From the NCBI RefSeq assembly GCF_028649655.1, contig NZ_JAQSLN010000001.1:62001-126000 (forward strand): a DNA stretch of 64,000 nt. Reading direction: 5' to 3'. The notes below the pieces were generated by a model, which was not told the origin of the DNA, did not search any database, and saw nothing but the letters and a program-made list of their open reading frames with translations. The stretch is from Halobacteriovorax sp. GB3. GTDB taxonomy: Bacteria > Bdellovibrionota > Bacteriovoracia > Bacteriovoracales > Bacteriovoracaceae. The translations under genes and the position numbers were made by a program. Below, piece after piece: positions 22,938-29,393 of this stretch (within the stretch, counting starts at the first letter, position 1; every line of letters begins with the position of its first letter).

Positions 22938-23684
22938 CTAATGAATCGAATACTTCTCATTTAGGTCTCTGATTATACCTTCGTTCTTGAGTTTTTGAAG
23001 CTCAGAATTGAATATTTCTTGTAATTTCTTTGAATGAAAAATAATTGATCTAGGACTCTGTCCAAAGAAAGGATGGAAATCAAAATGGTCAGATACTTTT
23101 TTATCTTTTAAATGAAGCTTCGCAAAATAGTTAAAAATACCTTGATCACTTATTGCTACGTCGATGCGACCTCTTAAAAGCATCATAACTTGAGTTTCTT
23201 GGTTTGTTGTTTCATTGTAATACTTTAGTTGAGAAGATAGCTTTTTAAAGTCTTTACCAAGTAAAACCCGAGCATTTTGAAAGCCTAAAACCCTTTTACC
23301 TAAGAGAGAGTTGAGGTCTTTAAGCTTTTTTCCTTTCATTGTTATGACAATATTTTTAAATGTTACTAATGTCTCCGAAGGATAGACTTTTGTTGGTGTC
23401 GCTTTGCGAATAAAGTCATTATCAATATTGACGATAGCATCAAGGTTTTTCTGGGCGAATTTCTCGATAATGCGTTTATTAGGAGCAAAGAAGAAGTCGA
23501 CTTTGTATTTATGGCGTTCAAAAATTTCCCTAATAATCTCTATTTCATAGCCTGAGCGGCGATCTTTCATTATGTAAGGAGGGGATGCTGCACTGAGGCC
23601 AATGAGGATACGTTCACCCTGATCCTGAGCTAGAGCAAAATTTATCTTGAATAGAATAAAAACAATCGTTATTAAGCTTTTCAT
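22938..23684 (-). CDS. Periplasmic solute-binding protein, family 3 type
   Basis: The protein has about 248 residues with a signal peptide ending near FALAQ. The mature part has the family 3 (amino-acid type) binding-protein pattern: an early PPYIMKDRRSGYEIEI segment, NLDAIVNID, and KRVLGFQNARVL at the second lobe. No ABC permease genes are adjacent, so it may be a sensor or orphan receptor rather than a transporter part. The start is uncertain: ATG at 23684 gives the cleanest signal peptide, while ATG 23693 and GTG 23696 are in frame upstream. Confidence 0.8.
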   Translation of the reverse strand: MKSLITIVFILFKINFALAQDQGERILIGLSAASPPYIMKDRRSGYEIEIIREIFERHKYKVDFFFAPNKRIIEKFAQKNLDAIVNIDNDFIRKATPTKVYPSETLVTFKNIVITMKGKKLKDLNSLLGKRVLGFQNARVLLGKDFKKLSSQLKYYNETTNQETQVMMLLRGRIDVAISDQGIFNYFAKLHLKDKKVSDHFDFHPFFGQSPRSIIFHSKKLQEIFNSELQKLKNEGIIRDLNEKYSIH

Positions 23685-23837
23685 GTTCTCCATCACCTAG
23701 GAGTCCTATTTTAACTGAATTATACCCATTCTCGAAGAGAGAAATAAAGTACCTGAAATCATATGAAATCTTCATAAATAATGACAATAAATTTTGCTGT
23801 AAAATGAAGGTCACCCAAAAATTGAGTTGTTTTGATT

Positions 23838-23897
23838 TAGTTAAGATGTTAACAATGTAGTTAATGTGTTAACAAGTTAGTTAATAAGTTAACTAAC
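23838..23897. promoter_or_regulatory. Three tandem 20-bp MarR operator repeats
   Basis: TAGTTAA-N3-GTTAAC recurs at 23838, 23858 and 23878 with exact 20-bp spacing (two helical turns). The third copy is a palindrome, TTAGTTAA-N4-TTAACTAA (23877-23896). The array ends 15 bp before the marR start codon. Such AT-rich palindromes are typical MarR operators, so autorepression of the efflux operon is likely. Confidence 0.8.
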
Positions 23898-23912
23898 TGC
23901 TTAGGGGGAAAC

Positions 23913-26310: not shown

Positions 26311-29300
26311 TTGAAATGTTTGTAAAAAGACCTGCGACAACGATTATATTTATCGCAATTTTTATGGTTATGGGGCTCGTCTCAGTAGGGAACCTGATTA
26401 TTGAGCCAACGCCAAAGGTAGAGTTTCCAATTATTACTGTTCAAACGGTATATGGGGGAGCTTCTCCTGAGGAAATTGAAACGCAAGTTTTAAAAAGAAT
26501 TGAGGACGCCGTTTCTGAAATTTCTCAAATTAAGAAAATCTCTTCGGAGGCCCGTGATAGTTACGGGGTCGTTGTTATTGAGTTTTTAATTGAAGCAGAT
26601 GTCAATATCAAGTCGATTGAAGTCAAAGATAAGGTTGAGGCCATTTTAAATGACTTCCCTGATGGTGCCGATAGACCAATTGTTGCCAAATTTGACCCTC
26701 TTATTCAACCTATTGCTACTCTTGTTATTTCAAGTGACAAGCATGATGCAACTAAACTCTATGAATATGCGGACAAGAAACTAAAGACTAGATTATCAGC
26801 AATTAATGGTGTCGCCTCAGTTGATGTCTTTGGTGGAAGAATCCGTCAAATAAATGTTGAATTAGACAATAACTTACTTATTCAGAACTATCTCTCCATT
26901 CAAGATGTCATCGATTCAATTTCTAGAAAAAACTTAAACGTTCCAGGTGGATCGATTGATAGAAGAGATTCGAAAATTAGTGTTCGCTTTGTCGGTGAAT
27001 TCGCCTCTGTTGATGAAATTAAAAACCTTGAGATCGTTTCTAAAGAGGGGAAGAAATTTAACTTGGAAGATATTGCTCAGGTTACAGATTCGTTTCGCGA
27101 TGTAGATTCAATTGCAAGATTCAATGGTAAAGAAGTTGTTGGTCTTGATGTTAAGAAACTCTCTGATGGAGATGCTGTAAAGATCGTAAATAACCTTAAG
27201 GGACAACTTGATAAAGTTAGAGAAGAACTTCCAGAGGGAATGAAGCTTGAACTTGCAGTTGATACAACAAAAATTACGCTTGATGATACCATTGGAACGA
27301 TCAATAGTATCCTTCTTGGGATTGTCCTAACGGTTGCCATTCTTTTGATCTTCCTTGGTGATTGGAGAGGGGCCATCATTGCGGCGGTTGTTATTCCAAC
27401 TTCTGTTATCTCAACTCTCTTTATTATGGATATGTCGAGCTTCTCAATTAACGTCATGTCACTTCTCGCTTTTGGGACGTGTCTTGGAACACTGATTGCT
27501 AACGCTTTGATTATTATTGAAAACGTCTATAAACATTTAAAGCTTGGAAAAGACTCTCAACAGGCCGCTGTTGATGGAACAAAAGAAGTTCTTTTGGCAA
27601 TCTTTGCTTCTTCAGGGACAAACCTCGTTGTCTTTACACCTCTTGCCTTTATGGGAGGGATTGTCGGACAATTTATGGTTCAATTTGGTATGACTGTTGT
27701 CTATGCAACAATCTTTTCTATCTTGGCCTCTGTTACTTTAACTCCTATGCTTTGTTCTTTATTACTTAAAGATCCAGCGAAGTTAAAAGGACCATTTCCT
27801 GCTCTTTCTAGAGTTACAGATCGTGTAATTGATTGGCTTTTAAAGCAATATAGAGTCTTTTTTGATTTCATGATGAAAAGACCAATTATCTCAATCATCG
27901 TTTGTGTTGGATTTTTTCTAACGATCGTCTTTCCCGCAAAACATCTCGGATCAGAGTTTGTTCCTAAATCAGATAGAGATAACTTCTTTGTCTCTGTTGT
28001 AATGCCAGATGGAACTCCAGTAGAGCGCAGTGGTGAAGTGATCGAAGAGATTGAAAAAATTGTTAACACTTATTCTGAAGTAGATAGTACTCTTGCCAAT
28101 ATTGGATATGACGGAGAGGAAAAAGCACGTCTCACAGTAAACCTTATTCCAGCAGATCAAAGAAAGAGAAGTTATAAGGATCTTATTGATGATGTTCTTC
28201 CAAAATTAACAAAAATTCCCGAAGCCGAAATCATTCTCTCTGGTGGAGAGAGATCAGCAAGTAATCAAGGTGATGTCACTATTGATGTTCGTGGGGATGA
28301 TTTTAAATCAATGAGTGAAGCCGCAGAGAAAATGAAGCAGATTATGGCCGAAACGGGATACTTTGGTGCCATTGAAAGTTCATTTCGAGTACCAAAAATG
28401 GAAATCCGCTTTAGTCCAGATCCAAAGAAAGTGATCGGACAGCGCTTAACAAACGTTCAAGTTGGTAGTGTTATTCGTGCGCTTGTCAATGGAAATGATA
28501 ATGCTGTCTATAAAGAAGGTGGAGAAGAATATGATATCAATGTTACTCTCGCTCCTGACTTTAAGGGAAATATTGAAGACTTCGATAGATTCCTAATTCA
28601 CGGTAAAGATGGACTAATTCCAATATCATCTCTTGGTAAAATTGATTTTACTGAAGCAACTTCACCACTTAAGCGTCGTGATAAAAGCCGTATCATTCAA
28701 TTAAACGGTTACCTTGTTAAGTCAACTTCTGGTGCTGTTATGGGAGAGCTAACTAAAAAGTTTGAAGAAGCAAAATTTCCAGACACTGTTAGCTATGCTT
28801 ATACTGGAACAGCTGAAAACCAAGAAGAGTCATCGCGTGAACTTGGAAAAGCATTTATGCTAGCTGTTGTTCTAACGTATATGCTTCTTGTTGCAATTCT
28901 AAACTCATTTGTTTTCCCTCTTTCGATCGGTTCATCAATTGTAACTTCTTTTCTAGGATCATTTTTATTGATGTTCTATACAGAGCAATCAATGAATATT
29001 GGTTCCATGATGGCCATGGTTATGGTCGTTGGTCTAGCAGTTAACAATGCCATTCTTCTCATTGAATTTGCACAGCAAAAGCTCAGTGAAGGTCTTGATA
29101 TCAAAGAGGCTCTGTGGCTTGGTGCTAAGGAAAAGCTCAAACCAATCCTCATGACTTCAATTGCCATTATTGCAGGAACACTTCCTCAGCTTTTCTCTCT
29201 GGATAAGATGAAATCAGCAATGGGTGCCGTTGTCATTGGTGGTATGATCGGATCAATTGTCTTTACTTATTTTCTTGTACCTGTCGTTCACTACGTTGTG

Positions 29301-29365: not shown

Positions 29366-29393
29366 AAGGCCCTCATTATGAGGGCCTTTTTTA
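29366..29393. terminator. Terminator of the efflux operon
   Basis: A near-perfect palindrome, AAGGCCCTCAT / ATGAGGGCCTT, is followed by a T run on the + strand; it ends at the stop codon of the convergent reductase gene. Confidence 0.85.

Follow-up and report, generated by a model that had tools for sequence, protein, structure and literature searches.

A conserved RND cassette without the canonical TM4 proton-relay carboxylates and with a mini adaptor in Bacteriovoracales and gut Alphaproteobacteria

Introduction

The window analysed here, a stretch of 64,000 nucleotides from Halobacteriovorax sp. GB3 (contig NZ_JAQSLN010000001.1, positions 62,001 to 126,000), encodes an RND inner-membrane protein in which Asp407, Asp408 and Lys940 of the AcrB proton relay are replaced by Ala, Asn and Asn. 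The canonical relay is very probably absent by selection, in a protein that functions. The strikingly short adaptor encoded beside it belongs to the same story, although it had no place in the initial annotation of this DNA. As a whole, the cassette probably specifies a tripartite RND exporter that has no proton relay, that works either as a gated conduit or with a non-proton ion bound at an Asn/Ser/Thr site, and that has a stripped adaptor.

Multidrug export in Gram-negative bacteria depends chiefly on RND pumps, and to our knowledge proton coupling through TM4 is treated as universal among RND proteins. By homology, the clade described here is an RND tripartite system, yet it lacks defining features of an AcrB-type antiporter. 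If this reading is true, the clade would stand apart from other RND systems as a mechanistic class of its own, and many reduced gut Alphaproteobacteria would have no other AcrB-type RND. Gut genomes of 0.9 Mb that hold the cassette as their only AcrB-type pump indicate that it is not an accessory curiosity. The clade is a natural test of whether an RND porter can do without coupling or use an ion other than H+, and also of the minimal adaptor that a TolC-linked system needs.

Loss of the relay residues

The features of the cassette are listed in Table 1. The window RND protein and its relatives were aligned with E. coli AcrB, MdtB, MdtC and CusA, and A398, N399 and N913 fell at AcrB positions 407, 408 and 940 respectively. 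Both assignments made earlier, Ala398-Asn399 at Asp407-Asp408 and Asn913 at Lys940, were borne out by codon arithmetic, translation and the AcrB alignment. The flanks that anchor the alignment are invariant or nearly so (G403, E414, N941 and T978 in AcrB numbering); S481 is also kept, and R971 is K or R. Misalignment of TM4 or TM10 is ruled out by these invariant flanking residues. In addition, the model of the RND protein (pLDDT 82, moderate confidence) matches the AcrB-type fold across the whole chain, with Z ~52 over ~985 residues.

Table 1. Features of the cassette, with positions in the window
Feature	Position	Strand	Details
Cluster of TTAGTTAA/GTTAAC-type repeats, direct and inverted	23837..23903		Probable MarR operator; arms 78-87% complementary
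MarR-family regulator, 156 aa	23913..24383	+	GTG start; Pfam MarR_2 2.2e-14
TolC-like outer membrane channel (OMF), 422 aa	24380..25648	+	Pfam OEP 1.2e-43, two domains; TIGR01844 1.6e-22
Mini periplasmic adaptor, 220 aa	25648..26310	+	N-terminal TM helix, membrane-proximal domain and beta-barrel; without lipoyl domain and alpha-hairpin
RND inner-membrane protein without TM4 carboxylates, 1017 aa	26307..29360	+	Pfam ACR_tran 5.5e-211, full length
Ala398-Asn399 codons (AcrB D407-D408 positions, TM4)	27498..27503	+	LGTLIANALIIIEN; translation, alignment
Asn913-Asn914 codons (AcrB K940-N941 positions, TM10)	29043..29048	+	Asn913 codon, 29043-29045, is VGLAVNNAILLIE
Hairpin AAGGCCCTCAT..ATGAGGGCCTT between convergent genes	29366..29388		Hairpin called on the - strand; T-run on the + strand

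Each of the AcrB variants D407N, D408N, K940A and R971A fails to translocate protons and to export substrate (PMC4359379), and a central acid is essential in the RND proteins studied (PMC8277102). The initial annotation had noted that loss of any relay residue inactivates AcrB. This holds for AcrB (PMC4359379; PMC8277102) but not for RND proteins in general. The K940 and D408 positions vary among paralogs of the same genome. Across the six other full-length AcrB-family paralogs encoded in the window's genome, the D408 position is D, D, D, D, N and M, the K940 position is K, R, N, N, N and D, and Asp occupies the D407 position every time. The window's protein is the only full-length AcrB-family protein of that genome with a TM4 that has no carboxylate at 407/408. 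Both Asp and the Lys are retained by all 23 ordinary relatives used for comparison. Judged from these sequences, loss of the D407 carboxylate is the exceptional part; the change of K940 to N alone is ordinary, and that of D408 to N is not unheard of.

A conserved clade under selection

Both motifs could be read in 46 relatives of 39-76% identity. Every one of them carries Ala or Ser at position 407 and Asn at both 408 and 940. They belong to the Bacteriovoracales and to gut Alphaproteobacteria with 0.9-Mb genomes. Among the relatives recovered by searches of the phylum and of GTDB genomes, those in several families of Bacteriovoracales and neighbours are 44-76% identical, and those of the gut Alphaproteobacteria 39-41%. 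Beyond the clade the next RND proteins are only ~31% identical and the nearest ordinary paralogs ~30%. Among the best matches listed in a plasmid search, the RND protein found only RND proteins of ~30% identity. The relay-less proteins make up one side of a tree branch with an SH-aLRT of 100. CusA grouped apart in the tree, and the heavy-metal family was not the best match (TIGR00914, 330 bits against a cut-off of 701; the multidrug model NF033617, 638). Thus the protein has the ACR_tran homology and AcrB fold of the HAE-1 family, and lacks both the TM4 relay carboxylate(s) D407/D408 and Lys940 in 46/46 relatives, the last being weakly diagnostic, as it varies in ordinary paralogs. An open-access literature search on RND proteins naturally without the relay returned no description of this clade.

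A residue pair that is normal for its subfamily had been named earlier as grounds against relay loss. Literally, the pair is normal, since an A/S-N rule holds in the protein's own subfamily; yet this strengthens the case, because the entire subfamily has lost the relay and kept the rest. The 45-row subfamily alignment has few invariant positions (12%), and N399, N913 and N914 are three of them; the Asn codons at these sites vary synonymously between AAT and AAC. For the RND gene, dN/dS lies at ~0.04-0.10 in pairs that are neither saturated nor near-identical, and for the adaptor gene at ~0.1-0.2. The earlier observation of no frame damage also stands: the RND frame is open and under purifying selection, and the motif is invariant. 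Decay or frame damage is ruled out by dN/dS and motif invariance, and with the clean flanking alignment added, a decaying gene or an alignment artefact is scarcely credible. A divergent member (L124, from G675), at 32% identity, has GPLTSNTLIVID in TM4 and VVNGSILLLE in TM10; it has no acid at 407/408, has Asn at 408 and 940, and has Gly in place of the second TM10 Asn.

The occurrence of the clade differs between groups. In the order that contains the alphaproteobacterial members, 186 of 201 genomes had a hit with an E value of at most 1e-60, mostly E = 0, although ordinary pumps account for a minority of these. The cassette is patchy in the window's own family (~13 of 59 genomes). One cassette (L075, JAUVLC010000014.1) was found in a metagenome-assembled genome labelled Clostridia, which is either a mislabelled contig or a real transfer.

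Seven draft, possibly incomplete alphaproteobacterial genomes of 0.8-1.0 Mb that carry the protein intact were checked (G369, G370, G372, G373, G680, G827 and G818), and it is their sole full-length ACR_tran protein. The cassette must therefore function there without another AcrB-type RND. This bears on the earlier suggestion that the pump works with a partner pump, which the seven reduced draft genomes make unlikely; a partner RND as a general rule is ruled out by them. In the window's genome, six other full-length AcrB-family proteins are at hand with which the protein could form the passive half of an MdtBC-like heterotrimer with an ordinary RND protein. This arrangement is nevertheless very unlikely, given the seven genomes, the low identity of the nearest ordinary paralogs, and the single RND gene in the cassette of every relative, none of which has the second RND gene of an MdtBC-like system. 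Moreover, MdtB and MdtC both retain the two Asp.

Charges and polar residues in the membrane core

A conserved Asp, Glu or Lys elsewhere in the same pocket, which the earlier reading had allowed for, was not found. The 407, 408, 940 and 941 positions are all uncharged, and a column-wise alignment against 23 ordinary pumps, made without model coordinates, revealed no new conserved acid in the core of the 12 TM helices. The clade has also lost the D or E that ordinary relatives usually carry at AcrB position 484 (TM6). Newly conserved charges (E845, K969, R354, D375 and K426) sit at helix ends or in loops. The titratable residues that remain are the invariant E405 (AcrB E414), K/R943 (AcrB R971) and E/D920 (AcrB E947), all shared with ordinary pumps.

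Retention of these residues, with E405 invariant, K or R at 943 in 46/46 relatives and E or D at 920 in 46/46, would suit a protein that is still proton-driven, its titratable group having shifted to E405, to E/D920 or to an E405-K943 pair. Against such a shift, ordinary pumps carry the same residues, AcrB relay-residue variants are inactive despite an intact E414 and E947, and E405 lies two helical turns cytoplasm-ward of the D407 position. Displaced proton coupling of this kind is improbable.

Transporters of other families bind Na+ or Cl- at uncharged Asn, Ser and Thr sites. The clade keeps Ser471 in 46/46 and Thr950 in 45/46 relatives. The protein could thus be secondary-active and coupled to a non-proton ion (e.g. 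Na+ or Cl-) at a cluster formed by Asn399, Asn913, Asn914, Ser471, Thr950 and A/S398, where ion binding would replace the charge change that protonation makes in AcrB. The three Asn stay fixed over 39-76% identity whereas position 398 alternates between A and S, a pattern expected of coordinating residues. However, Ser471, Thr950 and Asn914 also occur in proton-coupled pumps, so that only Asn399 and Asn913 are special, and these two could merely maintain helix packing. Coupling to another ion in this way, and with it the replacement of the charge change, is on balance unlikely, although it is the main rival of the reading preferred below.

The mini adaptor

No Pfam family matched the window adaptor. 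A profile built from 42 adaptor relatives aligns with TriA, MexJ, MacA, BesA and AcrA over their C-terminal half only. In the AlphaFold model (pLDDT 94.9), a TM helix and a short helix accompany beta structure, and a long hairpin is absent. The best match among solved structures is BesA (PDB 4KKS; Z 17.7, rmsd 2.0 over 176 residues), and TMexC and AcrA follow at Z ~14. Adaptors of the relatives are 195-240 aa long, with the exceptions of 140 (L036) and 263 (L124), and those of ordinary relatives are 372-487 aa where readable. Thus the adaptor with lipoyl and hairpin domains that characterizes the HAE-1 family is not provided by the cassette's own adaptor gene. The relay-less state and the short adaptor co-occur across the cassettes of the clade. 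The 140-aa adaptor of L036 (oriented positions 1078-1497) is the most reduced RND adaptor among those examined, and apparently consists of the TM helix and the membrane-proximal domain, with the beta-barrel mostly gone.

Each of the reduced alphaproteobacterial genomes has one or more further adaptors that score above the family cut-off and lie beside a TolC-like gene of their own. A full-length adaptor may act in trans. In G369, G372, G680, G818, G827 and others, a TolC-like gene adjoins a full-length adaptor at another locus, possibly of the MacAB type.

Organization of the operon

The MarR, channel, adaptor and RND genes overlap by 1-4 bases; a single operon is predicted, which would encode a reduced tripartite exporter. 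Wherever the flanks of relatives are readable, the same order of regulator, channel, short adaptor and RND gene is found. The channels of the relatives are 428-446 aa long, and the regulator at the same place is MarR-like, or TetR-like in L075. The repeat cluster directly upstream of the MarR gene is a probable operator for autoregulation of the operon. The strong hairpin behind the RND gene is a predicted intrinsic terminator that serves both the operon and the opposite gene.

Other neighbours of the cassette vary. In some gut Alphaproteobacteria (L076, L085, L091 and L092) large ORFs of ~1000-1160 aa lie upstream of the regulator. Periplasmic solute-binding-like genes adjoin the cassette in two genomes, at 22938-23696 (- strand) in the window and at 2751-3449 in L072; this is probably a coincidence, such genes being common in the group. 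The flanks of the cassette showed no gene for a signalling partner.

The last result bears on whether the protein is an RND-fold sensor or structural module, which would signal or scaffold without transport, like the SCAP-type proteins with a sterol-sensing domain. Loss of the relay would agree with this, as would the aromatic deep pocket of AcrB (F610, F615, F617 and F628) and the switch-loop glycine, neither of which is kept, the alignment in these loops being uncertain. The full periplasmic porter and funnel fold is retained, however, and a TolC-like channel and an adaptor are always co-encoded, which points to export. A sensory or structural role is accordingly doubtful at best.

Proposed mechanism

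The best reading of these sequences is a functional exporter that would not be an AcrB-type H+/substrate antiporter. Since D407N, D408N and K940A are inactive in AcrB, a proton relay of the same kind is not expected in a protein that has lost all three of these residues. With no carboxylate at the site, protonation in TM4 could not switch the halves of the membrane domain as it does in AcrB. The retained hydrogen-bonding set of N399, N913, N914, S471, T950 and G394 would then form a charge-neutral switch. The periplasmic part would still cycle or gate, driven by substrate binding and by the substrate's own gradient. The system would in this case be a gated conduit from the periplasm to the outside, and not a proton-powered concentrating pump.

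A reduced tripartite exporter that acts as a gated, gradient-driven conduit is put forward as the best explanation, with tentative confidence that falls somewhat short of even; the uncoupled mechanism in particular is offered a shade more cautiously still. The RND proteins studied need central acidic residue(s) (PMC8277102), so that an uncoupled exporter would have no known precedent among tripartite pumps. In addition, E405, which is invariant, and K/R943 and E/D920, which are conserved, are still titratable, and three invariant Asn suggest a specific task, perhaps ion binding, over mere loss. Behind the conduit, coupling to another ion ranks as the main rival, followed in order of decreasing likelihood by displaced proton coupling, the sensor and the heterotrimer.

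Comparison with known systems

The clade resembles the AcrAB-TolC systems of the HAE-1 family (AcrB, MexB and MdtBC) in its full-length ACR_tran fold and in having a TolC-like channel and an adaptor in one operon. It differs in A/S, N and N at the D407, D408 and K940 positions, and shares only ~23-25% identity. The window adaptor also lacks the lipoyl and hairpin domains, and the window RND protein lacks the aromatic pocket and switch-loop residues.

The BesABC system of Borrelia is likewise a three-component RND system with a hairpin-less adaptor. BesA lacks the hairpin and keeps the lipoyl, barrel and membrane-proximal domains (PMC3807786), whereas the window adaptor has no lipoyl domain and is 18% identical to BesA over the aligned part. 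Common descent with BesA is not claimed, because the profile scores TriA, MexJ and MacA above it; the hairpin may have been lost independently in the two adaptors.

The laboratory variants D407N, D408N and K940A of AcrB are neutralized at the same positions, but there the changes are inactivating. In contrast, the clade presents a natural, conserved state in which all three changes are combined and the residues follow a distinctive pattern. The same-genome paralogs and CusA illustrate that D408 or K940 is replaceable in nature; in all the paralogs examined, the D407 position still has its carboxylate, which the clade has lost.
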